From: a virus
Strand: one strand, 5' to 3'
Length of the DNA stretch: 64,000 nt
Virus record (IMG/VR): IMGVR_UViG_3300042691_040495
Location: 1 to 64,000 of that record
The notes under the pieces were generated by a model, which was given only the letters and a program-made list of their open reading frames with translations, had not been told where the DNA came from and ran no database searches. Position numbers and translations under genes: made by a program. Of this stretch, positions 1 through 26,149 are shown in pieces; position 1 is the stretch's first letter, and every line of letters begins with the position of its first letter.

Positions 1-78
1 CTCCTCCAAACAATACGCCAAATACTACGCCGTCACGTACTCCTCCAAACAATACGCCAAATACTACGCCATCACGTA
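1..78 (+). repeat. 39-bp tandem repeat, two copies, coding
   Basis: Positions 1-39 and 40-78 are the same 39-bp unit with one mismatch. It reads in frame (13 codons) as a Pro/Asn/Thr/Ser/Arg-rich unit. The array probably continues left of the window. The length is a multiple of three, so copy-number change would keep the gene open. Confidence 0.85.
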
Positions 79-2630
79 CTCGTCCTAGTACTACGCCACA
101 ATCTACTCCACCAAGTTCTACAATGCCTCCCGGCGGAGGAGGTGGCGGTACTGATCCCGGCGGCGGTGGCGGTACTGATCCCGGCGGCGGTGGCGGTACT
201 GATCCCGGCGGCGGTGGCGGTACTGATCCCGGCGGCGGTGGCGGTACTGATCCCGGCGGCGGTGGCGGTACTGATCGCGGCGGCGGTGGCGGTACTGATC
301 CCGGCGGCGGTGGCGGTACTGATCCCGGCGGCGGTGGCGGTACTGATCCCGGCGGCGGTGGCGGTACTGATCCCGGCGGCGGTGGCGGTACTGATCCCGG
401 CGGCGGTGGCGGTACTGATCCCGGCGGCGGTGGCGGTACTGATCCAACGAAAATTCCTTTTTATCCTCGTTGCAGAGCAACATGGCAATTAGAGGGTGTT
501 GTTGATCCGAGTGTTGCTTGTACTTTTGAAGGTTCAGCATCTGGTATACAAGTTTTTGCCGACTCGGTTCAAGGTTATACTCTATTAATGGCTGAATATA
601 ATGGCAGTCTACCAGAATTCTATGGATCAGGAGAATTTACAGGCATTGGATCATATGGAATATGCAATAATCAACCAGAGACTACAGATATTGTTGCTGC
701 TTTTCAAAATATATATCAAACTGTTAATAGTTGTATAATAGAACACAATAGCGATCCTGATGTCTATGATCCAGTAACAAATCCCACAGGACCAAAATAT
801 AGACAACCTCAACTTAAATATTTTGGTACATATTGGGATGGAACACAATGGATTAATAATATTAATATAAGTCAAATAGGTGGAGCAATATCACAATCAA
901 TTACTAATAATATAGAAGACTTAAAAATTATGAATACATCTGAAAATCAATATATTAATAGTAGTAATTTTAAAATCAATATTAGTAATAATTGTCATAT
1001 AACTAAAACTCCAACAAAAAGTCCGGCCCCAACAAGAACTGTAACACGAACACCGAAAGTAACAAGGACAGTAACAAAATCGTTAACACCCACGCACTCT
1101 GTAACAAAATCACATCCAATAACAAGATCATTAACGCCAACTGTTACATCAACGCCAACTGTTACATTAACACCAACAAGATCAACTACTCCAACACCAA
1201 CCTATATTACAGATATTACAACCACTCCAACCATAACACAAACAATTACTCCGACACCAACAAAAAGCCAACCTATAACTATAGTTGATAATATATTATT
1301 AAATAACAGTTGTTTTTCTTCTAATTGGGCCACATTAATTTACGGAACAGATCAAAATACTACGGTCGGATCATTAAACACTTTTGCGGCTTGGCGTAAT
1401 ATTTATTCTATAGTTGATAATAATTATTCTATAATGGCAGGGGCAGCAACTAATCAATTTGTTAACGGTCCTGATGAATATTTTTATTCTAATGATAATG
1501 TATTTATAGACACAAGAGAAGCACCATCATCAAAGGATATAACCGGTCATTACAAAGTTAGAAATAGAATACTAGCAAATCAAAGTATTGATGGAAGAGA
1601 AAAATTAGTATTAGAATGTTTATCTCCTAATACAATAATAGGTAATTTTGTACAAAAACAACCGAGAATATTTAATACTATGCATATATACAAATCAACT
1701 ATTGGTATAACTGGTAGCTCAACAAAAGCACGATATAGTAATTTATTCGTAGCAGGAAGGAACGCTGGAGCAGATATCTATCTTAGAATAAATACATTAT
1801 TAAATCAGTCAGAACTCTCCCTAGCTGCGCCATATTCCGGAATGCTTCTAAAAAAGATGATTTCAGTAAATGCAACAAATAATGCTGATAATTCTTTAAA
1901 TAGTTATATTTTCTTTTTATATCAAAATCTTCTTTATGTAACCAATTCCAATTTTGATCCTGTAGGATCTTTACAAATACCTAATTCTAGTGCATATGAT
2001 ATGGTATTTTATAATAATAAATTGTATATTAGTGATTTTAATAAGTTACATGAGATAGACTATGGAGGAACAACAGATCCTATTAATAAATATTTTATAT
2101 TTAATATATTAAAATCTATAAATTTTAATCAACCCATTTATAATTTAACATTAAATCATTTAAATGGTAATATATATGCATCAAATACATACTCAGATGG
2201 CGAGTGGGATAGGAGCCATACTATAGTAAATTTATTAGATTATTCACAAACTGCGATAAATATTTCTTCTAGAGGTAAAGGAATATTTAATGTTGGAAAT
2301 AATAAATTATATATAGGTCATGGTAGTGATAATTATATTTCTGTAGTAGATCCAATAACAAATAATGAAATTAATAAAATAGATACTATTGAAACACCAA
2401 CTATTTTAACTATAGATAATAAACAAACATTATATTGTGGTAGTAATAAAATACAAGTTATAGATATATTAGAAGAAAATATTACTAGAACTCAACCTAT
2501 ACCAAGTTTTCAAAGTATTAGTAGTACGAATTTAATAGATATTCATATAGACACAGCATATGGATTTAATGCTCCTCTCGGAAGAGCATTTATCGTAAAA
2601 AATAACAATATAGAAACTGCAATTTTTTAA
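3..2630 (+). CDS. Thr/Pro- and Gly-rich stalk protein with propeller-like C-terminus (5' truncated)
   Basis: The frame is open from the left edge, so the ATG at 123 is internal and the gene starts outside the window. Order: Pro/Asn/Thr repeats, 13 units of Gly5-Thr-Asp-Pro (132-446), a globular part with several Cys (450-1000), a Thr/Pro stalk of TPTRT/TRTP type (about 1000-1275), then a C-terminal part. That last part has recurrent short strands such as NKLYISD, NGNIYAS and NKLYIGHG, as in NHL/YVTN-type beta-propellers. No catalytic motif seen. Extended low-complexity stalks ending in globular domains suit a virion fibre or surface adhesin; this is inference. The following gene repeats the Thr/Pro module. 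Confidence 0.8.
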   Translation, partial: PPNNTPNTTPSRTPPNNTPNTTPSRTRPSTTPQSTPPSSTMPPGGGGGGTDPGGGGGTDPGGGGGTDPGGGGGTDPGGGGGTDPGGGGGTDRGGGGGTDPGGGGGTDPGGGGGTDPGGGGGTDPGGGGGTDPGGGGGTDPGGGGGTDPTKIPFYPRCRATWQLEGVVDPSVACTFEGSASGIQVFADSVQGYTLLMAEYNGSLPEFYGSGEFTGIGSYGICNNQPETTDIVAAFQNIYQTVNSCIIEHNSDPDVYDPVTNPTGPKYRQPQLKYFGTYWDGTQWINNINISQIGGAISQSITNNIEDLKIMNTSENQYINSSNFKINISNNCHITKTPTKSPAPTRTVTRTPKVTRTVTKSLTPTHSVTKSHPITRSLTPTVTSTPTVTLTPTRSTTPTPTYITDITTTPTITQTITPTPTKSQPITIVDNILLNNSCFSSNWATLIYGTDQNTTVGSLNTFAAWRNIYSIVDNNYSIMAGAATNQFVNGPDEYFYSNDNVFIDTREAPSSKDITGHYKVRNRILANQSIDGREKLVLECLSPNTIIGNFVQKQPRIFNTMHIYKSTIGITGSSTKARYSNLFVAGRNAGADIYLRINTLLNQSELSLAAPYSGMLLKKMISVNATNNADNSLNSYIFFLYQNLLYVTNSNFDPVGSLQIPNSSAYDMVFYNNKLYISDFNKLHEIDYGGTTDPINKYFIFNILKSINFNQPIYNLTLNHLNGNIYASNTYSDGEWDRSHTIVNLLDYSQTAINISSRGKGIFNVGNNKLYIGHGSDNYISVVDPITNNEINKIDTIETPTILTIDNKQTLYCGSNKIQVIDILEENITRTQPIPSFQSISSTNLIDIHIDTAYGFNAPLGRAFIVKNNNIETAIF
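132..446 (+). repeat. Minisatellite, 13 units of 24 bp (first 27 bp), coding GGGGGTDP
   Basis: The first unit has one extra Gly codon and different Gly codons; the next twelve 24-bp units are virtually identical. The visible change is a CGC codon (Arg for Pro) at 276-278; the final Pro codon is CCA. The array is very GC-rich in an AT-rich genome. Such identity points to recent expansion or ongoing homogenisation. The unit is in frame, so slippage would alter linker length without frameshift. Confidence 0.95.
1000..1275 (+). repeat. Thr/Pro-rich coding repeat, copy 1
   Basis: Degenerate repeats encoding TPTRT, TRTP and TPTPT motifs in the middle of the first stalk protein. The opening stretch, from CHIT through KSPAPTRTVTRTP to KSLTPTH, is closely matched at the start of the copy at 2688-3037, so the module is duplicated. 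Confidence 0.8.
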
Positions 2631-2645
2631 ATTAGAAATAATATT

Positions 2646-3596
2646 ATGAATGATAATACTAATATAAATATAGATGCTAATTGCGATATTACAAGAACAC
2701 CAGAAAAAAGTCCTACACCTACGCGAACAGTAACTCGAACCCCAAAAATAACACGAACAGTAACAAAGTCATTAACGCCTACTCATACAATAACAAGATC
2801 ATCAACGCCAACAATTACTCCTACTAGAACAGTTACTCCCACAAGAACAGTTACAAGAACCGTAACTATTACACCAACCAGAACAATTACGCCGACACCA
2901 ACCATAACCCCTACAACAACCGTAACTCCTAGTATCACATTAACTCAAACTACTACAACTACACCAACAAATACTATTAGTCCTACTATAACGGTAACAC
3001 CAACACGCACAATAGCACCAACTCCAACTGCTTCTACTGTAAATAATTTCATTTTTGACTCTGATTACATCGCAATAACCTATCAATTTTTTGATGGTAA
3101 AGATTTAGATACTGCTACTAATTTAGCATATCCTAGATCACAAAATACATGTAATTATGTTGGATATTCATATAGTAATTTTATTGGAAATTCATCTAAT
3201 AAAATATTAACATGGTCTGGAGATAATACTGGCGCTAGCGGTTTTGAATCTGTTCTATTTGATGTTAATGCTTTTAAATATTTTTATTCTAATATTAATG
3301 AATTTGTTATAGATTGTAGATCGCATTGGTTTGGTACAACAGGATCTAATGCCGTTAGATTAGGAGTAGTATTATACAAAGGAGGGACAGTATCGCCAAC
3401 TCTTAATAACTATCAATTTGTAATTAATAATTATACTAATACATATTCATTTAGTACAAAATCTACTTTAATAACAGCTAGGTATAATAGTACTGATAAA
3501 AATCCTCAAAGAGTTGCAACATTCAAATATAATTTAATAACCAAAGAAGGACTAATAGATAATAACGATGTAATAACTGCTGTTGGATGCTATTAA
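2646..3596 (+). CDS. Thr/Pro-rich stalk protein with C-terminal globular domain
   Basis: 316 aa. Residues 1-15 are Asn/Asp-rich, residues about 15-130 are a Thr/Pro/Arg stalk, and residues 135-316 form a globular domain with aromatic and Asn-rich beta-strand character. The N-terminal 45 residues align well with the stalk region of the preceding gene, which ends 15 nt upstream, so the pair are tandem relatives. No signal peptide. The Thr-rich stalk would be an obvious acceptor for O-linked sugars, and glycosyltransferases lie 2.5 kb downstream. Virion-fibre or display role is inferred. Confidence 0.75.
   Translation: MNDNTNINIDANCDITRTPEKSPTPTRTVTRTPKITRTVTKSLTPTHTITRSSTPTITPTRTVTPTRTVTRTVTITPTRTITPTPTITPTTTVTPSITLTQTTTTTPTNTISPTITVTPTRTIAPTPTASTVNNFIFDSDYIAITYQFFDGKDLDTATNLAYPRSQNTCNYVGYSYSNFIGNSSNKILTWSGDNTGASGFESVLFDVNAFKYFYSNINEFVIDCRSHWFGTTGSNAVRLGVVLYKGGTVSPTLNNYQFVINNYTNTYSFSTKSTLITARYNSTDKNPQRVATFKYNLITKEGLIDNNDVITAVGCY
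2688..3037 (+). repeat. Thr/Pro-rich coding repeat, copy 2
   Basis: Repeats of TPTRTVT / TPTITPT type across about 116 codons, alternating Thr with Pro, Arg, Val or Ile. The first 35 codons match copy 1 at 1000-1275. Confidence 0.8.
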
Positions 3597-3599
3597 AAT

Positions 3600-3980
3600 A
3601 TGTTTAATTTTTATTCTACTAGATCATCAGAATGGAATAATGTTAGAAAACAACATCTTAAAAAAAATAATAGTTGCTGTGGATGCGGTAAAAAAGAAAA
3701 ACTAGAAGTTCATCATATTGAACCATATCATGTGAATCCTGATAGAGAATTAGATCCATCAAATTTAATAACATTATGTAAAAGTTGTCATTTTACTATT
3801 GGTCACTTAATGGATTGGAGCAGTTGGAATATTGACGTTATTAATGATTCTGGGGTGTATTTAAATAAGGTGAAAAATAGACCTTATCAAATAAAGGTTC
3901 AAAGCAATGAAAACTCTCATTTATTTGCTCGTTGCTTGCATAGGATATTCAATATGTTTAGCAGGAACGCGAGACCCTAA
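3600..3980 (+). CDS. HNH endonuclease
   Basis: 126 aa. A zinc-binding HNH domain occupies residues 25-70: CCGCG, then EVHHIEPYH, then NLITLCKSCH, giving the two CxxC pairs and the HH...N...H metal/catalytic pattern. It starts 3 nt after the upstream stalk gene. Its last 74 nt overlap the next gene in another frame, so its tail lies under the protease signal peptide. A free-standing homing-type HNH nuclease is the likeliest role. Confidence 0.8.
   Translation: MFNFYSTRSSEWNNVRKQHLKKNNSCCGCGKKEKLEVHHIEPYHVNPDRELDPSNLITLCKSCHFTIGHLMDWSSWNIDVINDSGVYLNKVKNRPYQIKVQSNENSHLFARCLHRIFNMFSRNARP
3854..3863 (+). promoter_or_regulatory. Candidate phage promoter motif GGTGTATTTA
   Basis: Copy of the GGTGTAT(T/A) motif, 44 nt before the protease ATG at 3907, inside the HNH coding sequence. 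Weaker evidence than the intergenic copies because it overlaps codons. Confidence 0.3.
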
Positions 3981-4653
3981 TATCAGTGATAAAAGTTATA
4001 TAGACTACGGATCCAAGTTTAAATGTGTTGTTCCACTGTGCGGAAAAGAGGACGATGGAGGCCCGTATTGTGCATCTGGCGTCGTTATTAAACCTAATTG
4101 GATTTTGACTGCTGCTCATGTGATTAAAAGAGCAAAAACGTGCAAAATCACCATTAATGATAAAGAAATACAAACTTCTGTATTTATTCCTCATAAAGAT
4201 TTTGAATCTAATAATTTTGGGTATTATGATATTGGTTTAATTTATTCTGATGAAAATATAGAATTAGATTTTTATCCTGAATTATATAAAGAAAATAATG
4301 AAGTGGGAAAAATTTGTGCATTATCTGGATATGGTATAACAGGAACTTTTGGAACAGGAGCCAAGATAGGAGATCATATTAAAAGAGCAGGATCTAATAG
4401 AATATCAGGAACAGATAGACATTTACTCATATGTGATCTAAAAGATCCTAATACTGTATTAGAATTTTTAATAGCAAGTGGAGATAGTGGTGGTGGTTTA
4501 TTTATAGATAAAAAATTAGCTGGTATAAATTCTTGTGTATTAGCTGTAGATGATCATCCAGATTCAACATACGGAGATGAAAGTGGCCATACTAGAATTA
4601 GTCAACATTTATCATGGATAGAAAGTACAATAAATGAGAATGAAAAAAAATAA
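3907..4653 (+). CDS. Secreted trypsin-like serine protease (S1 family)
   Basis: 248 aa. An N-terminal signal peptide (about residues 1-19, hydrophobic LIYLLVACIGYSICLAG) is followed by a chymotrypsin-fold domain. The triad is visible: His71 in LTAAHV, Asp108 in YYDIGL and Ser194 in GDSGGG. Cys40/45/55/80 and later Cys suggest disulfides in an exported enzyme. It overlaps the HNH gene upstream and the subtilisin gene downstream (20 nt), so the two proteases are translationally linked. It could act on host surface proteins or mature the neighbouring fibres; the substrate is unknown. Confidence 0.9.
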   Translation: MKTLIYLLVACIGYSICLAGTRDPNISDKSYIDYGSKFKCVVPLCGKEDDGGPYCASGVVIKPNWILTAAHVIKRAKTCKITINDKEIQTSVFIPHKDFESNNFGYYDIGLIYSDENIELDFYPELYKENNEVGKICALSGYGITGTFGTGAKIGDHIKRAGSNRISGTDRHLLICDLKDPNTVLEFLIASGDSGGGLFIDKKLAGINSCVLAVDDHPDSTYGDESGHTRISQHLSWIESTINENEKK

Positions 4654-5560
4654 AGTTAGTCTTTTACCATATATTTCAGAAGAATTACACGGACTATCTG
4701 CTGATGGGCCGCAAGAATATGGTTGGGAATTAATTAAATTTAATATTCAGTCAATATGGAGTCAAGCAGAAGGGGACGGAGTAGTCGTGGCGGTTATTGA
4801 TACAGGTTGTGATCTTGACCACCCTGATTTGAAAGAAAATTTATTAGATGGTAAAAACTTCATAAATACTAGCAAAGCACCAGAGGATGATAATGGCCAT
4901 GGAAGCCATGTATCTTCTACAATAGCGGCACTAAACAATGGAACAGGTATGGTGGGAATAGCACCAAAAACAAAAATATTACCCGTCAAAGCATTAAATG
5001 CTGAAGGTAGCGGATCAATAGATGTAATTTCAAAAGCGGTTGTTTGGGCGGCTGATCAGGGTGTGGATTTTATTACAATGAGTTTAGGTTCACCAAATGG
5101 AGTAAGTTGCTTAGACGATGCTATAGGATACGCGAATAGTAAAGGATGTGTGGTATTTTGTGCCGCTGGAAATAGTGGAGAAAATGTCGATATCATGTAT
5201 CCTGCTAAATACGAACAAACAATAAGTATTGGAGCTATTGATGAAAATTTAGACAGAACCAGCTTTACTTGCAGTGGTGAATCGCTAGACTTTTTGGCTC
5301 CCGGACATAATATTTTAGGATGTATTCCTGGTGGAAGATATGCTCTAATGAGCGGAACAAGTATGAGCAATCCATTTGCGGTTGGTTGTGCTTCTTTGTT
5401 ATTAAGCTATAATAAAAAATACAAAAAATATCAATTAGAAAATTATAACGGATATATTGATACTTTTAAAACGTCATGTTTAGATTTAAATAATCCTAGA
5501 TACAAAGGTATTAAAAAATATCAAGGATATGGAATATTAAATCCATCTAAATTATTTTAG
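4634..5560 (+). CDS. Subtilisin-like serine protease (S8 family)
   Basis: 308 aa. Catalytic motifs are intact: Asp56 in VIDTGCDLDHPDL, His89 in GHGSHVSS, the Asn of CAAGNSGEN (oxyanion hole) and Ser243 in GTSMSNP. It is compact: about 30 residues precede the catalytic domain, with no long propeptide and no clear signal peptide. It starts within the end of the trypsin-like gene (ATG 4634 or 4640), implying co-expression. Intracellular or virion-associated action fits the missing signal peptide. Its 3' end overlaps the convergent minus-strand gene by four bases. Confidence 0.92.
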   Translation: MRMKKNKVSLLPYISEELHGLSADGPQEYGWELIKFNIQSIWSQAEGDGVVVAVIDTGCDLDHPDLKENLLDGKNFINTSKAPEDDNGHGSHVSSTIAALNNGTGMVGIAPKTKILPVKALNAEGSGSIDVISKAVVWAADQGVDFITMSLGSPNGVSCLDDAIGYANSKGCVVFCAAGNSGENVDIMYPAKYEQTISIGAIDENLDRTSFTCSGESLDFLAPGHNILGCIPGGRYALMSGTSMSNPFAVGCASLLLSYNKKYKKYQLENYNGYIDTFKTSCLDLNNPRYKGIKKYQGYGILNPSKLF

Positions 5561-6695: not shown

Positions 6696-7259
6696 TTATT
6701 TTTTTTCAAAAATCATTAATGTATCTTTAAACCAAGATAGGCTAACATTATTTCTTAATATTTGTGATTCTGTCTTATTAAAAACATAATTTCTTAAAGC
6801 TATTTCTGATATAATATAGTCATTTGTTTGACAGTTTACATGTCCTTGACCTCCTTGCCCCGGTATTGCCCAACTAAGCACTATTATAGTAGAAGCGTGT
6901 CTAGTAATATTATCAAGAAATATTTTTTCATATATTACAGGTATGTGTTCGCCAACTTCCAGACTCATTACTACATCAAAAGTTTTTTGCAAATCCATGG
7001 GTGTAGATAAATCATAAACATTACATAATCCGTCTGTAATGATATTTGTTTCTGGATTTCCATCATAACATTCACAGAACATTGAATTATTCACTATGGT
7101 CTTACAATAATCTCCTGCCCCACATCCTAGATCTAAAACTGTTGAAACACCACGACTGCGAAAAAAACTAATTAACCCTATTGCTAGTAGAGGATCGTGC
7201 CAATGTTCATTAATAACATTCCCTTCCCAGAAACCTGTTTTATTTATAGAAAAGTTCAT
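6696..7259 (-). CDS. Class I SAM-dependent methyltransferase
   Basis: 187 aa. Motif I is VLDLGCGAGDYC (about residues 35-46), followed by an acidic residue at the end of strand 2 (CYDGNPET) and a motif-II-like DVVMSLEVGEHIP, typical of Methyltransf_11/23-type enzymes. ATG 7259 chosen; an in-frame TTG lies 15 nt upstream. It is the last gene of the minus-strand glycan operon and starts just after the preceding stop. Sugar or glycolipid methylation is a reasonable guess. Confidence 0.8.
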   Translation of the reverse strand: MNFSINKTGFWEGNVINEHWHDPLLAIGLISFFRSRGVSTVLDLGCGAGDYCKTIVNNSMFCECYDGNPETNIITDGLCNVYDLSTPMDLQKTFDVVMSLEVGEHIPVIYEKIFLDNITRHASTIIVLSWAIPGQGGQGHVNCQTNDYIISEIALRNYVFNKTESQILRNNVSLSWFKDTLMIFEKK

Positions 7260-7261
7260 TT

Positions 7262-8239
7262 TTATAATTCCCAATTATTTAATTGTAATAGATCACAAGT
7301 ATGTTGTATTCCATTATTTCCATCAATATATTTAATATAGTATTCCCTAGCATTATTACTAATAAATTGTAAAAAATCTTTATCATCTTTAATTTGTACA
7401 AATTTTTCTTCTATCATTTTTGCATGATCTTTATTTGCATAATGTTCTTGTTTATTTTCTAATGGTGGACCAGCAGAAATATAATGAAAATTTGGTATGA
7501 GATTAGGACTCATTTCATTGGTATATTCAAATCGTAACATAGGAACACCCATAGCCATATACTCTATATCTCTATAGCATATCTGGGCAGATCCGGCACA
7601 AGAAAATCCAACTTTATAATTAATTAGTTCATTAGCATAGTTATCAAAATTTCCAATAGAATTGCCTCCATAGAATAAATCAGTATTGAAAAATTTTATC
7701 ATTGGTCTATGTTCCAGACCTGTACCTCTAAAATAGAATTTATCAATAAATAATGATATTTTTTTACGTTGATTATATAGAGCATTTAAATCATATAAAT
7801 TAGATGGAAAATATATCCAAGGACTATAAATATTATCTATATTTTTATCATAGCAGTGATGTAGTATATCCTTACGATTAAATTGAGATACTAGTATTTT
7901 ACTTATATATGGTTTTGCTATTTCATTATTGAATAAACCAAGATTAATATCACTAAAATAATCACTAGTGGATAGTATTTTTATTTCTTTAGAGTCATAG
8001 TTTTCTAAGATCATCTCGCACTCAAGCATTATAGTAGAGTACATCACATTTTCGTTATCATTATCATATAAAAGTTTAACAGGATATCTTTCTTTATGAG
8101 CATTTATAAAATATCTATTTTCAATAATATCAAATTTATTTTTAAGATTTAATACAAAGTTATCAAAAAAGATATTATAATACCTATATTTTTTTGTTAC
8201 AAAATTAGTTGGATTATGTACTATTATTCTTGGTTTCAT
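7262..8239 (-). CDS. Putative glycosyltransferase (GT-B-like / CAP10-like)
   Basis: 325 aa. Recognition is weak. The C-terminal half has a segment reading VGFSCAGSAQICYRDIEYMAMGVPMLR, here split as FSCAGSAQICYRD and EYMAMGVPMLR. This resembles the donor-site loop of CAP10/LPS-type and other GT-B transferases, where a small residue cluster precedes a conserved acidic residue and an xMGxP turn. Overlaps the carbamoyltransferase gene by 4 nt. Function inferred mainly from that loop and from neighbours. Confidence 0.55.
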   Translation of the reverse strand: MKPRIIVHNPTNFVTKKYRYYNIFFDNFVLNLKNKFDIIENRYFINAHKERYPVKLLYDNDNENVMYSTIMLECEMILENYDSKEIKILSTSDYFSDINLGLFNNEIAKPYISKILVSQFNRKDILHHCYDKNIDNIYSPWIYFPSNLYDLNALYNQRKKISLFIDKFYFRGTGLEHRPMIKFFNTDLFYGGNSIGNFDNYANELINYKVGFSCAGSAQICYRDIEYMAMGVPMLRFEYTNEMSPNLIPNFHYISAGPPLENKQEHYANKDHAKMIEEKFVQIKDDKDFLQFISNNAREYYIKYIDGNNGIQHTCDLLQLNNWEL

Positions 8240-13504: not shown

Positions 13505-13528
13505 GACAAAAAAATCTTATCAAAGTGG

Positions 13529-16920: not shown

Positions 16921-17296
16921 AAAAATACCAATTTCTAATGGAGAATTATTAGATAAATTTTCTATATTAGAATTAAAATACAATAAAATTATAGATCCAG
17001 ATAAAATAAACAATATAAAAAATGAAATATCTTATTTAAGAGATATTTGTTATAATATCATTAATAGCTATAATATAACTAATCTTTATTACGAATTAAA
17101 ACAAGTCAATGAAGTATTATGGAACATAGAAGATAATATTAGAATAAAAGAAAATAAACAAGAATTTGATAATGAATTTATAGAGTTAGCTAGAAATGTA
17201 TACAAAACTAATGATAAACGAGCAAATATTAAAAAAACAATAAATGAAATATCAGGTTCAGAGATCATAGAAGAAAAATCCTATGAAAAATATTGA
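16913..17296 (+). CDS. DUF6165-family protein
   Basis: 127 aa. ISNGELLDKFSILELKYNKI at the N-terminus (usual form GELVDKxxILxIK) and, C-terminally, NEVLWNIEDNIR and YKTNDKRANIKK. These are conserved positions of DUF6165, a helical family found beside glycosyltransferases in phages and bacteria. Function unknown. Overlaps the exostosin-like gene by 14 nt. Confidence 0.7.
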   Translation: MSEKIPISNGELLDKFSILELKYNKIIDPDKINNIKNEISYLRDICYNIINSYNITNLYYELKQVNEVLWNIEDNIRIKENKQEFDNEFIELARNVYKTNDKRANIKKTINEISGSEIIEEKSYEKY

Positions 17297-18071: not shown

Positions 18072-18074
18072 TAT

Positions 18075-18920
18075 ATGAGTAAAAAAATACTAATATTAGG
18101 CAATGGTTTTATTGGTAAAAATCTATATACGTATTTTATTTCTAAATATAATACAACTATTACTAGTAAAAAAGATATAGACATCACCAATATTGAGTCT
18201 GTAAAATATTATCTAAATAATAAAAATTTTGACTATGTTATTTATGCCATAGGAATAAAAGATATTACAGAATGTGAAAAATATCCTGATAAAGCATATT
18301 CTATTAACTCTAATGGCGTTGCTAATGTTATCAAACATTTAAATAGAACTACCAAATTTATTTATATATCTACAGATTATGTATTCGATGGTAATATTGG
18401 TGGATATTCAGAAAATTCCATATCTTTACCATCAACAGCTTATGGACAATCAAAACTTGTAGGCGAACAATACGCACTTCAGCACAATAATTCTATTGTA
18501 GTCAGAACATCCGGCGTATATGGAGAAAATTGTCTTTGGCTTAAAAATTTATTAATTTCTCTATCAGAAAAGAAAGAAACTGTGTGTTTTTCTGATGTAT
18601 ACAACACTCCAACATATGCTATCAATTTGGCAGAAATGATTGACGATATTATTAATACTACTTTTCTAGGAGTTATCCATTTAAGTGGAAACACAAGAAA
18701 TAATAGATATGAACTATATTCGTCTGTGGCTACTATATTTGAGAGAGATCGTTCTCTTTTATCTAGCGGAATATCAAATGGTAAATTCCCTAAAGATATT
18801 TCATTAAATAATAGTTTATATAAACAAATAACTAAAAAAATACCAGATACTGTAATTAATGGACTTACAAGACTAAAAAATGAACATCAACATATTGATC
18901 CCATCAACATCGTCAATTAA
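18075..18920 (+). CDS. RmlD-like NAD(P)-dependent sugar reductase/epimerase
   Basis: 281 aa, SDR extended family. Rossmann motif LILGNGFIGKNL (GxGxxG) at residues 6-17; catalytic region FIYISTDYVFDG with Tyr-x3-Lys in TAYGQSKLVGEQ; then VVRTSGVYG. This is the dTDP-4-dehydrorhamnose reductase pattern. With the RmlC-like gene at 21833 it implies synthesis of a deoxysugar nucleotide; RmlA and RmlB are not in the window and may be host-supplied. Confidence 0.82.
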   Translation: MSKKILILGNGFIGKNLYTYFISKYNTTITSKKDIDITNIESVKYYLNNKNFDYVIYAIGIKDITECEKYPDKAYSINSNGVANVIKHLNRTTKFIYISTDYVFDGNIGGYSENSISLPSTAYGQSKLVGEQYALQHNNSIVVRTSGVYGENCLWLKNLLISLSEKKETVCFSDVYNTPTYAINLAEMIDDIINTTFLGVIHLSGNTRNNRYELYSSVATIFERDRSLLSSGISNGKFPKDISLNNSLYKQITKKIPDTVINGLTRLKNEHQHIDPINIVN

Positions 18921-19773
18921 TACCGTAAATAATGGAGCAAACGTTCAAGGTGACGAACTAGTTGCTCGATCATGGGCAAAATATTTGCAACAAGACACAA
19001 GAGTTTCTAGCGTTGATATCAATGGATTTGGCATATATGATGTTTCTATATCCTTTAGTCCATTAGTAAATCACCAAATGGTAGGATACAAAATATTATA
19101 TCTACAAAATGTTTTTCCGAAGCCCGCTTGGCCGGGTACTATTGAAGTGTATCATAAAATAAAACATAAATATGACAACTTTATATTTCCATCTGAAGGA
19201 TTGATGAATAACTGTGGTGAAGGACTTGTGTGTCAATTCGCTGTTGATCCTGATTTATTTTTTCCTAAACCTATAGATAATAATTTATCTCATAATTTAT
19301 GTTTTGTAGGTAATAATATTAGAGATCAACAAACATCAGAAAAATATTTATTATGCGCTAAAGATAAAGGATTGACCATATATGGTAATCCAGCAGGATG
19401 GAACTCTCCATTATGCAAAGGCAAAATAAGCATAGATGATGAAGCCACCCTGTATTCTTCTTCAAAAATATGTTTAAACGCTCACCTTACCGAACACCTA
19501 GATTATGGTTCGTATAATTTTCGTATCTTCAATATTTTAGCATGTAAAGGATTTATTATTTCTGATAGATCTCAATTTCTGGAAACAGAATTTAAAAATT
19601 GTATGGAATTTACAGATGGAAATGATGATCTTCTTTCAAAGATTGATTATTATCTAAATCATCCAGAAGAGACGAATAAATACAGAGAATATGGATATAA
19701 TCATGTTTTATCTAAACATACTTTCAAACACAGAATGTCAGATCTGTTAAACTGGCTAGGAACAAAATTATGA
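18880..19773 (+). CDS. CgeB-like glycosyltransferase (GT-B, Glycos_transf_1_3 type)
   Basis: 297 aa. GLTIYGNPAGW and LYSSSKICLNAHLTEH, followed by GSYNFRIFNILACKGFIIS, match the C-terminal donor domain of CgeB-like transferases (N-x-R-x-F/Y-E-xxACGG pattern). The N-terminal domain is reduced. The ATG at 18880 overlaps the RmlD-like gene by 41 nt, an unusually long overlap here; a later start would remove the first strand. Confidence 0.75.
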   Translation: MNINILIPSTSSINTVNNGANVQGDELVARSWAKYLQQDTRVSSVDINGFGIYDVSISFSPLVNHQMVGYKILYLQNVFPKPAWPGTIEVYHKIKHKYDNFIFPSEGLMNNCGEGLVCQFAVDPDLFFPKPIDNNLSHNLCFVGNNIRDQQTSEKYLLCAKDKGLTIYGNPAGWNSPLCKGKISIDDEATLYSSSKICLNAHLTEHLDYGSYNFRIFNILACKGFIISDRSQFLETEFKNCMEFTDGNDDLLSKIDYYLNHPEETNKYREYGYNHVLSKHTFKHRMSDLLNWLGTKL

Positions 19774-21149
19774 AAATACTATTTGCAAATATACCAAATG
19801 TAAAATATGTTAATGGACAGATCCACACTGGACCAAATGCCGGATCACGATGGCCTTGGACCAATCCCGGAGGACATTTTCATGGATATGCTCCTTTCCC
19901 CTTTTGGTTAGGATATGCTGCAAAATATGTGCAACATCATGGTTTTGAAACGTATTTTTATGATGGTGTTGCATTAAAACATTCTGATTTAGAAGTTACC
20001 AAAAAAGTTATTTATGACTTAAAACCAGATATAATTTTTTATGATATATCTACGCCAACTTTTAAACTAAACAATGATATAGCATTATGGTTTAAACAAA
20101 ATATCGGATGTCGAAATGTATATTGTGGACCCCATATGAAAACCTATGCCAATGAATGTATAGAGTTAGATCATGTTGATCATTGCATTGTTGGAGAATA
20201 CGACATACCAGCATTGGATATTTGTCAAAAATTAGACAATGCCAAAGATATCTATAGATTTGAACATCTATCAAATATAGATACTTTACCTAATGGAGAT
20301 AATTTTTTACCATATAGACCATTAGATTATATACAAAACTATTATGAACCAACAATGAACACTCCTATGATACAATTAACAGTGAGTGCTTCTCGTGGAT
20401 GTCCATTTAAATGTACATATTGTCAATGGCCAAATGTTATTAATAATGGTAAATATAGAGCACGATCAGCAGAAATGGTTATTGATGAAATACAACAAAT
20501 GAAAAACATTTTGGGAGATGATCTTCGTAGTATACTCTTTGATGATGATACATGGAATCTTGGACATAATAGAATATCTAAAATTTGTGATGGACTTAAA
20601 AATTTTAATATGCCATGGACAATGATGGGCAGAATAGATACAAGTAAGCCTGAACTATATGATAAAATGGTAGACTCTGGTTGTGTTGGAATGAGATTTG
20701 GAATCGAAACATTTAATCAGGAACTATCTGATAATGTTAAAAAACATATGAATACTAAAACCGCTTACGATAACTTAAAATACTTAGTTACTAGATTTTC
20801 AAATATGGAATTTCATTTTACTACTATGAAAAATTTTCCAGGAGAAAAAGCAGGATCATGGGAGAAAGATCAAGAAATTTTAAAAGATCTTCAAGCAATT
20901 GGTAGACAGAATAACAATACTGTTCATTGGCAAATTAGTGATTGCATACCTTTTCCTGGAACAGAATTGTGGGAAGAATTAGTAGAACTTGGACATGGAG
21001 ATACTTTGAAGAATTTTAGTTTATATGATGGTAGTCCAGAACATAATGGAGCATTGGAAAAAACTGTTGGTTGGTTAGGAGAAAATTATAAACCAAAATA
21101 TTCAGAATATTCCAAAGATGGAACTCCAACAAACTTTCCTAAGGAATAA
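19770..21149 (+). CDS. B12-binding-type radical SAM protein
   Basis: 459 aa. Residues 1-150 form a Rossmann-like domain resembling cobalamin-binding domains. ASRGCPFKCTYCQWP (about residues 205-219) carries the CxxxCxxC cluster motif, and SILFDDDTWNL plus GMRFGIETFNQ are the usual radical SAM strand motifs. BchE/HpnJ-type enzymes of this class do methylation or rearrangement. The DxHxxG cobalamin motif is not obvious, so B12 dependence is likely but unproven. In this cluster it probably modifies a sugar or lipid. Confidence 0.85.
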   Translation: MKILFANIPNVKYVNGQIHTGPNAGSRWPWTNPGGHFHGYAPFPFWLGYAAKYVQHHGFETYFYDGVALKHSDLEVTKKVIYDLKPDIIFYDISTPTFKLNNDIALWFKQNIGCRNVYCGPHMKTYANECIELDHVDHCIVGEYDIPALDICQKLDNAKDIYRFEHLSNIDTLPNGDNFLPYRPLDYIQNYYEPTMNTPMIQLTVSASRGCPFKCTYCQWPNVINNGKYRARSAEMVIDEIQQMKNILGDDLRSILFDDDTWNLGHNRISKICDGLKNFNMPWTMMGRIDTSKPELYDKMVDSGCVGMRFGIETFNQELSDNVKKHMNTKTAYDNLKYLVTRFSNMEFHFTTMKNFPGEKAGSWEKDQEILKDLQAIGRQNNNTVHWQISDCIPFPGTELWEELVELGHGDTLKNFSLYDGSPEHNGALEKTVGWLGENYKPKYSEYSKDGTPTNFPKE

Positions 21150-21154
21150 TTATA

Positions 21155-21250
21155 ATGCTAGCATTAACAATGCAACAAAGTGCTGAGTGGATAGAATCTA
21201 TCATATTACAAAGGAATAAAAAATATGTTAACTACAGAAGATATAAATAA
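21155..21250 (+). CDS. Possible 31-aa peptide
   Basis: ATG at 21155 preceded by AAGGAA with 8-nt spacing; ends in the 5' part of the next gene. The sequence MLALTMQQSAEWIESIILQR continues for 11 basic/aromatic residues. Could be a real short peptide, a leader peptide coupling translation to the methyltransferase, or chance. Confidence 0.3.
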   Translation: MLALTMQQSAEWIESIILQRNKKYVNYRRYK

Positions 21251-21836
21251 TGTATGCATAGGATGGTCAAATAACTCTCATGTTCAATTTTTTACAAAAA
21301 TCTTATCTGATCCAAGAATTAATAATATTTGTATTTGTGGAGTTTATTATGGTAGAGATATTGCTTATATAAAAAATATTAATAATTATCTCTATAATAG
21401 AAATATAAAAATAACAGGCATAGATTTATTTTCTGATGATCCAGGAGCAGACTGGGAAGAACATAAAAAAAATATGACATGGGAAGAATTTTGTGGTATG
21501 CCCAGCCCAACAAAAGAAAAAGCTGAAAATAATTTAAAAAAATTAAACCTATTTGATAACAATATTACATTAATTAAAAATAAAGATTCAGATTTCTTAG
21601 AACAGACTAATGAGCAATTTGATTTTATCTATTTAGATACTGCTCACGACTACAATACTGTTAAAGTATCTATAGATAAAGGTATAAATAAATTGAATAA
21701 TTTTGGCATCATTGGTGGCGATGATTTTGCAGATTCTTCTACATGGGGTGTTAAAAGCGCAGTTGAAAAATCTTTTTATAAATATGAATTAATTGGTTCT
21801 TGTTGGTATACAAATTTTAGAGATTATATTAAATGA
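21225..21836 (+). CDS. SAM methyltransferase, Methyltransf_24-like
   Basis: 203 aa, with AAAGGAA upstream of the ATG. ICICGVYYGRDIAYI stands where motif I is expected, with a degenerate glycine pattern, followed by KITGIDLFSDD and a clear FDFIYLDTAHDYNTV with the D-x-A/D-H-x-Y signature of Methyltransf_24-type sugar O-methyltransferases. A later IIGGDDF strand fits. Stop overlaps the RmlC-like start. Confidence 0.7.
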   Translation: MLTTEDINNVCIGWSNNSHVQFFTKILSDPRINNICICGVYYGRDIAYIKNINNYLYNRNIKITGIDLFSDDPGADWEEHKKNMTWEEFCGMPSPTKEKAENNLKKLNLFDNNITLIKNKDSDFLEQTNEQFDFIYLDTAHDYNTVKVSIDKGINKLNNFGIIGGDDFADSSTWGVKSAVEKSFYKYELIGSCWYTNFRDYIK

Positions 21837-22357
21837 ATCATATATTTATTCATGATAAATTAATTTCTGAAATAATATTAATCAAAACTCAAATTTATGA
21901 GGATCATAGAGGAACACTTTATGAGACTTATAATAAAGAACTATTTATTAAAAATGGCATACCAGAAATAGTACAAGAAAAATGTTCACATTCTGAATAT
22001 AAAGTATTAAGAGGATTACACTATCAAAAAGATCCTTACGGACAAGGCAAAATAATTAGATGTAATAGAGGTAAAATTCTTGATGTCGCTGTTGATATTA
22101 GAGAAAACTCAACAACATACAAACAATGGGTTTCTTATGAATTATCAGAATCTAATAAAGATATGATATATATACCACCAGGATTTGCTCATGGAATTCT
22201 AGTATTAAGTGAAGAAGGTGCTGACTTTACTTATTTTACAACCCAAAAACACTATCCAGAATATGAAGTTATATTACAATACAACGACCCCTCAATAAAT
22301 ATTGACTGGCCAATTAAAGATGTAATTCTATCGAATAAGGACAAGGGAAATAAATGA
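21833..22357 (+). CDS. RmlC-like dTDP-4-dehydrorhamnose 3,5-epimerase
   Basis: 174 aa, typical length. EDHRGTLYE near residue 24, KVLRGLHYQ with the catalytic His, ILDVAVDIR and IYIPPGFAHGILVLSE are the core cupin motifs of RmlC. The enzyme epimerises C3 and C5 of dTDP-4-keto-6-deoxyglucose before RmlD reduction. Together with the RmlD-like gene 3 kb upstream it supports production of a rhamnose-type deoxysugar. Confidence 0.9.
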   Translation: MNHIFIHDKLISEIILIKTQIYEDHRGTLYETYNKELFIKNGIPEIVQEKCSHSEYKVLRGLHYQKDPYGQGKIIRCNRGKILDVAVDIRENSTTYKQWVSYELSESNKDMIYIPPGFAHGILVLSEEGADFTYFTTQKHYPEYEVILQYNDPSINIDWPIKDVILSNKDKGNK

Positions 22358-23097
22358 AAAATTATAGATGTTCTTCTTTTTGTTCGCTATATAAAGGAGA
22401 AAAATTTGTTAAAGGATACATAGAAGACATGTTGAAACAGTCTATCTTTAATGATATTGAATTTATTTTTTTGGACTGCGCTTCTCCAGAAAATGAGAAA
22501 AACTTTATTATCCCATTAACAGAGCAATATTCAAACATTAAATATCATAGACTAGATAATGATCCTGGTTTATATGCGGCATGGAACATAGCAATTCGCA
22601 TGTGCTCGTCAGATATTATTGGAAATTGGAATATTGATGATAGAAAAAATGTAAATAGTTTTGAAATACTGGTAAAATCTTTTGAAAGAGATCCAGAACT
22701 GGATCTAGTATATGGACTTACTTATGTATCTACCATAGCTAATGAAAGATACGAAGATAATAACTATTCTAATATTTATCCTTGCTTACCACACTCTTTA
22801 AAAAATCTATTACTTAATAACAGTCCTCACTGTATGCCTTTGTGGAAAAAGAATTTACATGATAGATTTGGATACTTTGATGAATCGTATAAGACAGCTT
22901 CTGATGGAGATATGTGGTTGCGTTCATGCGTCGGAGGTGCTAAGATATCTTTGGTCAACCATCCGGTGGGTTTGTACTACCATAACCCACAAGGTAGATC
23001 AACAGATCAAAAAACACTACTAGAAATGGTAGCTGAAGTTCAAGAGATGAGAAAAAAGTATATGTCTTATTTAAATTTGGAGAACTCTAATGGATAG
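22354..23097 (+). CDS. Family 2 glycosyltransferase
   Basis: 247 aa. FCSLYKGEKFVKGYIEDML and EFIFLDCASPENE open the GT-A fold; GLYAAWNIAIRMCSSDIIG and NIDDRKN supply the donor site; later SDGDMWLRSCVGGAKI stands in the ED-x-W-like acceptor loop. Inverting GT2 chemistry is expected. Overlaps its neighbours on both sides by a few bases. Confidence 0.85.
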   Translation: MKNYRCSSFCSLYKGEKFVKGYIEDMLKQSIFNDIEFIFLDCASPENEKNFIIPLTEQYSNIKYHRLDNDPGLYAAWNIAIRMCSSDIIGNWNIDDRKNVNSFEILVKSFERDPELDLVYGLTYVSTIANERYEDNNYSNIYPCLPHSLKNLLLNNSPHCMPLWKKNLHDRFGYFDESYKTASDGDMWLRSCVGGAKISLVNHPVGLYYHNPQGRSTDQKTLLEMVAEVQEMRKKYMSYLNLENSNG

Positions 23098-23233
23098 TTT
23101 TATTGTGATATGTTTGGTAATATCAATACTTGGAGGATCTATTTCTGGAATGACAGAAATATACAGAGAACGAGGAATCAAAACCCAATCCTCAAAAAAT
23201 ATTTTTACCTTCTTATTCTGTGACAAATATTAA
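23090..23233 (+). CDS. Small single-span membrane protein
   Basis: 47 aa: ATG 23090, stop 23231-23233, which shares its last base with the next ATG (TAATG). Residues 4-20 (FIVICLVISILGGSISG) are a transmembrane segment, then a charged stretch and a Phe-rich tail. It fills what otherwise looks like a gap between two genes. Function unknown. Confidence 0.6.
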   Translation: MDSFIVICLVISILGGSISGMTEIYRERGIKTQSSKNIFTFLFCDKY

Positions 23234-23763
23234 TGGAAAGACTGAAGAATCAGAGAGTCTATTTAGCAGGAGCCATGGACAGAGTTCCTGATCGGGGATC
23301 AACATGGAGAGACAATATAACCCCATTTCTTAATGATCTCGGTATTGTTGTATTTAATCCTATAAGTAAACCCACAGATATAGGATTAGAAGATAAAGAT
23401 ACTCATGCTATCAAAACTAAACTGAAAGAAAAAGGAAGATACGATGAACTAACATCAATGATGAAAACCATAAGATCTGTTGATCTAAGATTGGTTGATA
23501 TCAGTGATTTTTTAATAGTTAATCTGGATCTAAATACTCATCCGTGTGGAACTTTGGAAGAAATATTTTGGGCAAATCGTCAAAAAAAACCAATAATTAT
23601 ACATATGGTTCAAGGAAAAGGCCATACTCCAGATTGGTTATTTGGAACAATACCTCATCAAATGATATTCTCCACATGGGAGGAAATAAAAGCATACTTG
23701 AATCATATTAACTCATCAGAAAATATAGATTCTTATAAAAGATGGTATTTTTTTTCGGTGTAA
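23233..23763 (+). CDS. Nucleoside 2-deoxyribosyltransferase-like protein
   Basis: 176 aa. RVYLAGAMDRVPD at residues 8-20, STWRDNITPFL, VVFNP and, centrally, RLVDISDFLIVNLD with HPCGTLEEIFWA. These correspond to the first-strand loop, the Asp cluster and the catalytic-Glu helix (GTxxE) of the PF15891-type family. Classical members exchange bases on deoxynucleosides; relatives hydrolyse nucleotides or NAD-type substrates. It precedes GMP reductase, consistent with purine remodelling. Confidence 0.7.
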   Translation: MERLKNQRVYLAGAMDRVPDRGSTWRDNITPFLNDLGIVVFNPISKPTDIGLEDKDTHAIKTKLKEKGRYDELTSMMKTIRSVDLRLVDISDFLIVNLDLNTHPCGTLEEIFWANRQKKPIIIHMVQGKGHTPDWLFGTIPHQMIFSTWEEIKAYLNHINSSENIDSYKRWYFFSV

Positions 23764-23764
23764 G

Positions 23765-23968
23765 ATGCCTAAATATTATATCAAATCTGGTCAAATTAAA
23801 TTTATAGTAGATTGTACAGACCATATTTGCGCCATTCTTGCTGCGCTCACTCACTATAAAGGAAAAGGGGTTTTAACCGGACCCAAAATCTGTGTTAGCG
23901 AACAAGGTTTTGAAGATTTCAGAAAATGGAAATGTTATGATACTGATAAGTATTTGAAAGAAATATGA
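23765..23968 (+). CDS. Hypothetical 67-aa protein
   Basis: MPKYYIKSGQIKFIVDC, then CAILAALTHYKGKG and KICVSEQGF: the look of a small alpha/beta phage protein. Sits one base after the deoxyribosyltransferase-like gene and one base before GMP reductase. No function assigned. Confidence 0.6.
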   Translation: MPKYYIKSGQIKFIVDCTDHICAILAALTHYKGKGVLTGPKICVSEQGFEDFRKWKCYDTDKYLKEI

Positions 23969-23969
23969 A

Positions 23970-25094
23970 ATGCAAAAAATTATTAATGAAACTAAGTTAG
24001 ATTTTGATGATGTTCTCATACGACCCAAAAGATCAACATTAAGTAGTAGATCTGATGTATGTATTCAGCGAGAGTTTAGATTTAAATACTCGCCAAGAAA
24101 ATTATTGGCAGTACCAATTATGGTAGCTAATATGGATACTGTTGGCACTTTTGGTATGGCTAAATCACTAGTCAAGCAAAATGCTATCACATGCTTACAC
24201 AAGCACTATTTACCATATGAATATATTGATTTTTATAGCGATCCCAATATTCCTAATAAAGACCTAGTTTTCTATTCCATAGGAACTGGACAGAAAGATC
24301 TAGAAAAACTCTCTTATGTTCACAATCATCTTACAGAAGGTAAACATTGTCCAGGCCCAAATATATGTTTAGATATTGCGAATGGATATACTGAACAATT
24401 TGTAAAAACAGCAGCTCATATCAGAAAACTATTTCCAGAATCTGTTTTAATGGCTGGAAATGTTGTTACTCCAGAAATGACCGAAGAACTAATTATTCAT
24501 GGTCAGGTTGATATAGTTAAGGTTGGTATAGGTTCTGGTAGTGTGTGTACTACTCGTTTAAAAACTGGCGTAGGATACCCTCAATTAAGCGCCGTAATGG
24601 AATGCTCTGACGCTGCTCATGGTCTTGGTGGACATATCTGTTCTGATGGAGGCTGTAAAGTAGTTGGAGACGTTTGCAAAGCATTTGGTGGTAATAGTGA
24701 TTTTGTAATGTTAGGTAGTATGTTCGCTGGAGCAGATGAGTGCGAAGGAGAATGGAAGTATGAATATCTTACTAATATGGGATTTTGGCAACCATTAGAT
24801 CCAGGATATAAATTTGATCCTCCAAAAACAAGAAAAACCACCCTCCAGTATTACGGGATGAGTAGCAAAAACGCTATGAATAAACATCACAACGGTGTTG
24901 CTAAATATAGAACCGCAGAGGGTAAATGCGTTACTGTACCATACAAAGGAACAGCAGAAGAGATACTGCAAGATATTTATGGAGGTATACGAAGCGCCTG
25001 TACTTATATAGGAGCTAACAAGATAAAAGATTTTGGCAAAAAAACAACATTTATACAAGTAAACAATACTCATAATAAGGTATATGAAAAATGA
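23970..25094 (+). CDS. guaC: GMP reductase
   Basis: 374 aa. Aligns well with bacterial GuaC along its length: KLDFDDVLIRPKRSTL at the start, VANMDTVGTF, AGNVVTPEM, GIGSGSVCTTRLKTGVGYPQ with the catalytic Cys, SDGGCKVVGDVCKAFGG, QYYGMSSKNAMNKH and GGIRSACTYIGA. No CBS domains, and the YGMSS flap is GuaC- rather than IMPDH-type. It reduces GMP to IMP with NADPH, releasing ammonia, and would let the phage move guanine nucleotides toward adenine in an AT-rich genome (inference). A short insertion is seen around residue 265. Confidence 0.93.
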   Translation: MQKIINETKLDFDDVLIRPKRSTLSSRSDVCIQREFRFKYSPRKLLAVPIMVANMDTVGTFGMAKSLVKQNAITCLHKHYLPYEYIDFYSDPNIPNKDLVFYSIGTGQKDLEKLSYVHNHLTEGKHCPGPNICLDIANGYTEQFVKTAAHIRKLFPESVLMAGNVVTPEMTEELIIHGQVDIVKVGIGSGSVCTTRLKTGVGYPQLSAVMECSDAAHGLGGHICSDGGCKVVGDVCKAFGGNSDFVMLGSMFAGADECEGEWKYEYLTNMGFWQPLDPGYKFDPPKTRKTTLQYYGMSSKNAMNKHHNGVAKYRTAEGKCVTVPYKGTAEEILQDIYGGIRSACTYIGANKIKDFGKKTTFIQVNNTHNKVYEK

Positions 25095-26149
25095 AAATAA
25101 ACTATTCTGGACCAATTAATAATACTGGGTATGGTCTAGCATCATTAAATATTCTAAAAGAATTATCAAAAATAGCTGATGTAACTTATTTTCCTATAGG
25201 TAATCCGGCCGTTAATAATCAAAACGACTACAACGCCGTTCTACCGTTGCTGCAAAAAAGAATGCAATTAGATATTAATGCACCTAATTTTAGAATATGG
25301 CATCAATTTGATTTATTAGATCATATTGGACGAGGCAAATATATTGCTTATCCATTTTTTGAATTAGATTCATTTAATGATTTTGAAAAAATTAATTTAA
25401 AAGTTCCAGATATAGTTTGTGTTAGTAGCAAATGGGGCCAGCAAGTTCTTCATAATAATGGTATAGAATCACCATCTTGCGTTGTTCCGCTAGGAGTAAA
25501 TAGAGAAATATTTAATAACAATATAAAATCCAATAGAAAAGATGATAAATATGTATTTCTGAATATAGGAAAATGGGAGGTACGTAAAGGTCACGATTTA
25601 TTATTTAATATTTTCAATACAGCATTTCCAAATGAAAAAGATGTTGAATTATGGATTTTAGCATCAGAAAAAACTAATAGCTATTCTTCAAGCGATGAGC
25701 TTACACAGTGGAAAACTATGTATGCTTCTGACAGAGTTAAACTTTTCTCTGGTTTTGAAACTCAAGAAGAAATTGCTCAATTAATAGCAAACTCTGATTG
25801 TGGATTATATCCCTCAAGAGCAGAAGGATGGAATTTGGAGTTATTGGAAACTATGAGCATGGGCAAACCAGCAATAGCAACAAATTATTCTGCGCATACA
25901 GAATTTTGTACATCTGATAATTCTTACTTGGTAGATATAGAAGAAACAGAAAAAGCTTTTGATGGAAAAGCATTTCAAGGACAGGGTAATTGGGCTAAAT
26001 TAGGTAAAAATCAAATTGATAATATTATTGATCATATGAGATTTGTTTACAAAAATAGGCTAAATGTAAATCCAAATGGAATAGAAACGGCCAAAAAGTA
26101 TTCTTGGGCAAATGCAGCAGATCAAGTTATGAGGTGTATTTCTAATTAG
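25091..26149 (+). CDS. Family 4 glycosyltransferase (GT-B)
   Basis: 352 aa. INYSGPINNTGYGLASLNIL forms the N-domain GG-like loop; the C-domain has YVFLNIGKWEVRKGHDLL, IANSDCGLYPSRAEGWNL and ELLETMSMGKPAIATNYSAH, i.e. the EGWxxxxLE donor-site motif of GT4. Last gene of the second glycan locus; overlaps guaC by 4 nt. Confidence 0.9.
   Translation: MKINYSGPINNTGYGLASLNILKELSKIADVTYFPIGNPAVNNQNDYNAVLPLLQKRMQLDINAPNFRIWHQFDLLDHIGRGKYIAYPFFELDSFNDFEKINLKVPDIVCVSSKWGQQVLHNNGIESPSCVVPLGVNREIFNNNIKSNRKDDKYVFLNIGKWEVRKGHDLLFNIFNTAFPNEKDVELWILASEKTNSYSSSDELTQWKTMYASDRVKLFSGFETQEEIAQLIANSDCGLYPSRAEGWNLELLETMSMGKPAIATNYSAHTEFCTSDNSYLVDIEETEKAFDGKAFQGQGNWAKLGKNQIDNIIDHMRFVYKNRLNVNPNGIETAKKYSWANAADQVMRCISN
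26133..26142 (+). promoter_or_regulatory. Candidate phage promoter motif GGTGTATTTC
   Basis: Copy of the GGTGTATT motif at the very 3' end of the GT4 gene, 27 nt before the ATG at 26160. Lies in codons, so weaker than intergenic copies; the AGGAGA ribosome site follows. Confidence 0.35.

Follow-up and report, generated by a model that had tools for sequence, protein, structure and literature searches.

A glycosyltransferase pair linked to Thr/Pro-rich stalk genes suggests mucin-type O-glycosylation of phage tail stalks

Stalk genes and the transferase pair at the locus

The sequence considered here is a window of 64,000 bases, namely bases 1-64000 of an IMG/VR viral record (G000) of 96,681 bases, in which two Thr/Pro-rich (T/P-rich) genes for putative tail stalks lie beside a large set of sugar-related genes. 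As DnaB-retrieved relatives of this record extend to 200-244 kb, it probably represents less than half of a large phage genome. Sugar genes were called by Pfam profile scans of the window's proteins with curated cut-offs, and stalk-coding DNA was traced with the pattern encoding TPTxTPT, the reversed pattern serving as a control. The open reading frames (ORFs) central to the argument, which include glycosyltransferases (GTs), are the following; the last two lie beyond the window, towards the opposite end of the record.

3-2630, plus strand: stalk protein 1, 875 amino acids (aa), truncated 5' by the contig boundary; phrog_15511; proposed glycan acceptor
2646-3596, plus strand: stalk protein 2, 316 aa; phrog_24956, phrog_15511; proposed glycan acceptor
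10517-11809, minus strand: GT60 glycosyltransferase (PF11397), 430 aa, Pfam E 1e-69; proposed first-sugar transferase on stalk Thr
11781-13523, minus strand: HtrL_YibB domain (Pfam) plus a second GT-A domain (HtrL-GT), 580 aa; proposed glycan-extending tandem transferase
L002:8316-11261, minus strand: third stalk ORF, with an FGE-sulfatase domain and a 422-aa T/P region containing 149 Thr
L002:11271-15083, minus strand: fourth stalk ORF, with an FGE-sulfatase domain

Both ORFs next to the sugar genes, described in the original prediction as Thr/Pro-rich stalks, are borne out as such by their composition and by the motif count, TPTxTPT being encoded 16 times in the record and the reversed pattern not once; the two far-end ORFs add to them. 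Stalk protein 1 is T/P-rich at residues 1-40 and about 330-437 and has a long C-terminal domain, and Thr makes up 23% of stalk protein 2, whose T/P segment (residues 11-141) holds 53 Thr and 18 Pro. In the phage stalk segments, which were chosen blind to Thr versus Ser, T/(T+S) is 0.81, as against 0.50 for the remainder of these ORFs. The two far-end ORFs belong to a series of giant ORFs (2622 and more than 2000 aa) that appear to resemble tail or baseplate genes, with a presumed structural role. A separate peculiarity of stalk protein 1 is an unusual Gly-rich spacer made up of 13 near-perfect GGGGGTDP repeats (window positions 123-490).

The presence of a GT60-type protein, as originally predicted, is clear from its PF11397 match, which scores 236 bits against a cut-off of 21. 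Its DxH motif (D106-S107-H108) is invariant in an alignment of 34 phage relatives, and its AF2 model (pLDDT 90.7) predicts a GT-A fold near that of GT27. Foldseek comparison of this model with the PDB yielded polypeptide N-acetylgalactosamine transferases (GalNAc-Ts), the initiators of mucin O-glycosylation, as 18 of the top 20 matches, the other two being chondroitin polymerase; a sequence search of the PDB found no relative. Further phage and giant-virus GT60-like proteins were recovered by a structure search of BFVD, and in one 310-kb record (G142, loci L418/L441) the GT60 match falls within a reading frame of some 820 aa that may be a fusion. We take the alpha-N-acetylglucosamine (GlcNAc)-transferase of Trypanosoma cruzi to belong to GT60, following PMC7185993, which cites Heise 2009. 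The GT60 and GT27 families have in common the DxH motif, instead of DxD, and O-glycosylation of polypeptide Ser/Thr (PMC7185993), and the GT60-type polypeptide alpha-GlcNAc-transferase of T. cruzi glycosylates Thr in mucins with approximately 50% Thr, 8% Pro and 1% Ser (PMC3769586).

The HtrL_YibB profile matches HtrL-GT with 39.1 bits (cut-off 24.1), covering its N-terminal half only. The model of this protein comprises tandem GT-A domains, with its best matches among the two-domain LARGE1, LH3 and chondroitin polymerase; given that the overall template modelling (TM) scores of these matches are low, we infer a glycan-extending role only provisionally. Neither GT60 nor HtrL-GT contains a membrane or signal segment.

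Linkage of the pair to stalk genes

At least 563 IMG/VR stretches encode GT60. Comparisons were made between 80 GT60 loci from IMG/VR, 80 DnaB loci from phages of the same clade and random viral loci (80 or 120); the viral records compared are fragments, and the sample of 48 random viral records, 19 of them of similar size, was not habitat-matched. Comparison of the window's sugar proteins with these loci recovered HtrL-GT in 72 of the 80 GT60 loci, and in 87 of 98 loci the two genes share a strand. The other sugar genes are rare in the 80 loci (FkbM in 6, carbamoyltransferase and radical S-adenosylmethionine (SAM) protein in 3 each, RmlD in 2, RmlC in 1). Hence, at the sequence level, the conserved core is a unit of two genes, GT60 and HtrL-GT, and the remainder of the block is variable; the original reading of all 26 kb as a single system was rejected on account of this poor conservation. 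The pair and its close neighbours had no match in the 80 DnaB loci, and 80 random loci gave only one HNH match. An ORF at 14261-14833 has a counterpart in 35 of the 80 GT60 loci. RmlC was rejected as a marker of the system, having returned only two loci as a search seed. Seeding with the carbamoyltransferase returned seven viral loci, six of which show a tandem of GT60, carbamoyltransferase and HtrL-GT; in five of these six (two of the five being near-duplicates) a T/P-rich gene abuts the module.

The TPTxTPT pattern is present in 40 of 47 GT60 records as opposed to 0/48 random viral records (Fisher 6e-20) and 0/19 of similar size (4e-11), with the reversed pattern at about zero throughout the record sets. 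In the reverse direction, PF11397 was detected in 12 of 38 stalk-bearing records (8/14 of those above 90 kb) versus none of the 48 random ones (p 2e-5). When fetched 10-kb flanks were searched for ORFs with at least 50% T+P within 50 aa, such an ORF was found no more than 10 kb from 36 of the 80 GT60 genes, compared to 0/80 same-clade DnaB loci and 0/120 random loci, and likewise within 10 kb in 9 of 11 further GT60 loci drawn from stalk-bearing records. Of 51 loci, 19 have a T/P gene less than 250 bp from a gene of the module, and in 14 of these the two share a strand.

A comparable arrangement exists on a bacterial chromosome. With the restrictive seeds used, close GT60 matches were limited to two of approximately 85,000 genomes of bacteria and archaea. 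In one of them, Jiulongibacter sediminis, the gene for a T/P-rich protein of 262 aa is flanked on either side by a GT60 gene; next come a carbamoyltransferase with 52% identity to that of the window and an FkbM-HtrL-GT fusion, the HtrL-GT part of which is 46% identical to the window HtrL-GT. In its 4.5-Mb genome TPTxTPT is encoded at five positions, all within the gene between the GT60 genes, and 395 genomes of its class contained no other strong GT60 match. The shorter second GT60 paralogue of this bacterium (L442, 7960-8880) adjoins the T/P-rich gene, and nine phage HtrL-GT ORFs are about as long as the bacterial fusion. Linkage of the same-strand GT60/HtrL-GT pair to T/P genes thus extends across many phage lineages and to one bacterium.

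Of the 50,697 phage records searched, only those of XacN1, CM1 and RAS14 contain this GT60. XacN1 and CM1 both have GT60, carbamoyltransferase and HtrL-GT together, with 85 and 36 TPTPT matches, respectively. The RaK2 group has most structural genes in common with the jumbo phage XacN1 (PMC5852040); RaK2 itself lacks GT60, has no TPTPT match in 346 kb, and encodes a giant distant homologue of XacN1 ORF325, RaK2_0070, without the T/P linkers that ORF325, like XacN1 ORF350, has. The XacN1 virion is reported to contain at least two glycoproteins, which its authors suggest are made by the phage GTs ORF328 and ORF334 (PMC5852040), and we found ORF334 to be GT60.

Several observations weigh against the transferase acting on the stalks. 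The GT60 model resembles GalNAc-Ts only moderately (TM about 0.45), and the main text on XacN1 does not name the virion proteins that are glycosylated (PMC5852040). The GT60 loci are mutually related, and this kinship inflates the P-values quoted above; they nevertheless form 14 clusters at 70% identity, 10 of which have a T/P-rich neighbour, so the linkage is not one sequence counted repeatedly. Co-occurrence in relatives, which the original prediction had put forward as a check, is pronounced across records but weak within the phage's own clade (p 0.05), because stalks are common in that clade. Long records with stalks and neither GT60 nor HtrL-GT also exist (G136, 202 kb; G027, 140 kb; G141, 166 kb), which means that T/P stalks either need no such module or are served by another enzyme, and that the link between GT60 and stalks is one-directional. 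These three records carry many T/P stalks and may use another transferase or none. Conversely, sugar genes in the absence of stalks had been named as a refuting observation, and the exact TPTxTPT motif is indeed missing from 7 of the 47 GT60 records, most of which are fragments; in one of them, G106, a Thr/Gly/Ser-rich stretch is present.

Some of these observations are those expected if GT60/HtrL-GT and T/P fibres merely gather in the same variable tail-fibre or accessory region and do not act on each other: the GT60 loci are phylogenetically related, stalks occur without GT60, and accessory genes of other kinds (proteases, HNH) often occur near GT60 as well. Such hitchhiking is nonetheless unlikely in our estimate, in view of the operon-like abutment in 19/51 loci, the recurrence of this pairing in a bacterium whose sole motif-bearing chromosomal gene is flanked by two GT60 genes, the contrast in T/P linkers between XacN1 and RaK2, and the location of the other GT clusters of these phages away from stalks.

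As to the residue modified, the original prediction had invoked the hydroxyproline-glycosylating eukaryotic members of GT60. If GT60 acted on hydroxylated stalk Pro in the manner of Gnt1 on Skp1, a prolyl hydroxylase would be expected nearby, and four of the 26 large GT60 records (G082, G085, G098 and G107) do have a PF13640-type prolyl-hydroxylase-like gene about 10 kb or less from GT60, so that these may form a minority hydroxyproline branch. No such gene was found in the fragment record G000 or in the other 22 of the 26, the characterised T. cruzi enzyme acts on Thr, and the Ser-poor, Thr-rich stalks suit Thr as the acceptor. In addition, the T/P repeats are replaced in the locus of G106 (L482, 15858-17768) by a stretch rich in Thr, Gly and Ser but poor in Pro, TGTTTGSTTGST, at a distance of about 10 kb from GT60, which suggests that Thr is the conserved feature. 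We therefore drop the hydroxyproline link as originally stated and regard this route as very unlikely for GT60; Thr is, from sequence, the likelier acceptor.

The variable sugar block and neighbouring genes

The remaining features of the window include genes close to the core, a plus-strand variable block and two further GT clusters:

3907-4653, plus strand: trypsin-like protease with a signal-peptide-like N-terminus; near GT60 in 33/80 loci
4634-5560, plus strand: subtilase; near GT60 in 38/80 loci
6696-7274, minus strand: methyltransferase-like accessory gene, sub-threshold (score 25, cut-off 27)
7262-8239, minus strand: glycosyltransferase-like accessory gene, no Pfam match; present in 25/80 GT60 loci
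8236-9813, minus strand: NodU/CmcH-type carbamoyltransferase (Pfam, PF02543 + PF16861); proposed optional decoration
9806-10513, minus strand: FkbM-type methyltransferase (Pfam); proposed optional glycan decoration
14838-26149, plus strand: variable sugar block, with GT-like proteins and the genes listed next, its members in just 1-23 of the 80 GT60 loci
18075-18920, plus strand: RmlD (Pfam)
18880-19773, plus strand: GT (Pfam)
19770-21149, plus strand: radical SAM protein (Pfam)
21225-21836, plus strand: methyltransferase of the variable block
21833-22357, plus strand: RmlC (Pfam)
22354-23097, plus strand: GT2 (Pfam)
23970-25094, plus strand: IMPDH/GMP-reductase-like protein, between the GT2 and GT4 of the variable block
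25091-26149, plus strand: GT4 (Pfam)
39880-43342, plus strand: second GT cluster (Pfam), an 886-aa multi-GT protein and a 266-aa GT2, from 39880 and 42542
61243-63949, plus strand: third GT cluster (Pfam), a 567-aa GT4 and the next ORF, extending to about 67.8 kb of the record

The RmlC, RmlD, carbamoyltransferase, radical SAM and HtrL-like genes of the original prediction were all recovered by Pfam. Two of its three methyltransferases exceed the cut-off, the ORF at 6696-7274 falling below it, and eight GT-like proteins, HtrL included, do so in the window; more than ten transferases, as first proposed, is plausible but not established by Pfam, the ORFs starting at 5928, 7262, 14838, 15467, 16258 and 17283 having an absent or sub-threshold match. 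The second GT cluster had no match near GT60 in the 80 loci, leaving a link to stalks unsupported, and the third, which is near DnaB, was seen in 41 of the 80 DnaB loci, none of them with a T/P-rich ORF. RmlC, RmlD, the radical SAM protein and these two distant clusters may serve another use, such as a change to the host surface; conservation gives them no link to the stalks.

Remodelling of the host lipopolysaccharide (LPS) or capsule, for instance against superinfection, with the stalks present by coincidence, could still account for part of the variable block. Sugar clusters that include Nol-like carbamoyltransferases are common in cyanophages, jumbo-phage clusters have been interpreted as modifying capsular polysaccharide (PMC7824862), and RmlC/RmlD make rhamnose-type sugars. 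For the core we consider it highly improbable: GT60 is a family of polypeptide transferases, the module is linked to T/P-rich genes, and no tested sugar protein or GT of the block has a membrane segment, half of the genome being unseen, so there is no candidate flippase, polymerase or membrane phosphoglycosyltransferase among them. Glycosylation of hypermodified phage bases finds some precedent in the phage GTs acting on DNA that are cited in PMC12619734, and dCMP deaminase and dNMP kinase genes are present. However, no hydroxymethylase or thymidylate-synthase-like gene was seen among the proteins scanned, a subset of the ORFs of an incomplete record, and GT60 pairs with T/P-rich genes on a bacterial chromosome too, making DNA modification extremely unlikely. 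On these grounds both DNA modification and LPS remodelling were set aside as explanations of the whole.

The trypsin-like and subtilase genes overlap head to tail between the stalks and the GTs, and this pair might process stalk or virion proteins. Unusual cargo for a phage includes the IMPDH/GMP-reductase-like gene (23970-25094) and ferritin-like and PAP2 phosphatase genes (26697-27299 and 27304-27972). By eye, DNA polymerase III alpha is seemingly split (56406-58274 and 59153-60778), with an exonuclease-like ORF at 58448-59146 in between.

A candidate mucin-type O-glycosylation module

Mucin-type O-glycosylation is usually regarded as a eukaryotic trait, and few cases of phage virion glycosylation are known. 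The evidence assembled above, from co-occurrence and adjacency to the bacterial case, the fold and motif of GT60 and the XacN1 glycoproteins, strongly supports that part of the original prediction in which T/P stalks are O-glycosylated by the phage, as distinct from the parts concerning the whole block and hydroxyproline. We consider it likely that a mucin-type O-glycosylation module encoded by the phage acts in the cytosol on the phage's own T/P-rich stalks. GT60 would transfer an alpha-linked sugar, probably GlcNAc, onto many stalk Thr residues before virion assembly, and the HtrL-GT tandem would lengthen the glycan so initiated. Lineage-specific genes, namely FkbM, the carbamoyltransferase and perhaps other GTs and RmlC/RmlD, would then cap it. 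Dense glycans of this kind might stiffen and shield the long, disordered stalks of the tail, which bear tip domains (of FGE-sulfatase fold or propeller-like), and variable capping might alter recognition of the virion surface.

The protist GT60 polypeptide alpha-GlcNAc-transferases (T. cruzi TcOGNT-2 and Dictyostelium Gnt2, besides the Skp1 Gnt1 acting on hydroxyproline) belong to the same Pfam/CAZy family with the DxH motif, and their associated proteins are, as in the phage, Thr-rich, Ser-poor and Pro-containing. They are, however, Golgi enzymes, whereas the phage GT60 is apparently cytosolic and paired with HtrL-GT, its activity being a prediction. The animal GalNAc-Ts (GT27) furnish the best structural matches of the GT60 model and share the Thr/Pro-rich type of acceptor, but belong to another CAZy family and show a moderate similarity of fold. 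Eukaryotic mucin-type enzymes are those of the secretory pathway; since neither GT60 nor HtrL-GT has a membrane or signal segment, the phage module is best said to work like that system rather than to be it, the likeness lying in a Thr/Pro-rich, Ser-poor candidate acceptor encoded together with its transferase. Mycobacteriophages offer another case of phage-encoded glycosylation of virion proteins, in which, going by the citation of Freeman et al. 2023 in PMC12619734, the C-termini of capsid and tail-tube proteins are modified, in contrast to the long T/P stalks and GT60-type enzyme proposed here. XacN1 has reported virion glycoproteins (PMC5852040) and a cassette of GT60, carbamoyltransferase and HtrL-GT adjoining a T/P-linker protein; its authors drew no connection between the GTs and the T/P linkers, and no RmlC, RmlD or radical SAM protein is annotated in the stretch read. 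No paper connecting GT60 to phage tail fibres turned up in literature searches, which does not prove that none exists.

More broadly, we lean slightly towards the view that a widespread phage module of GT60 and HtrL-GT makes bottlebrush-like, heavily glycosylated stalks with lineage-specific caps and has a common ancestry with the mucin-initiating transferases of protists, phages being perhaps a main reservoir of this type of enzyme. To judge from gene content, large aquatic phages thus probably coat their own mucin-like tail stalks with sugar. If this is true, it would account for the long, protease-resistant and possibly masked tail stalks of these phages, would make available a simple, soluble bacterial means of producing mucin-like glycoproteins, and would reduce the question of what phage 'moron' glycosyltransferases target to an assay with one enzyme and one peptide.

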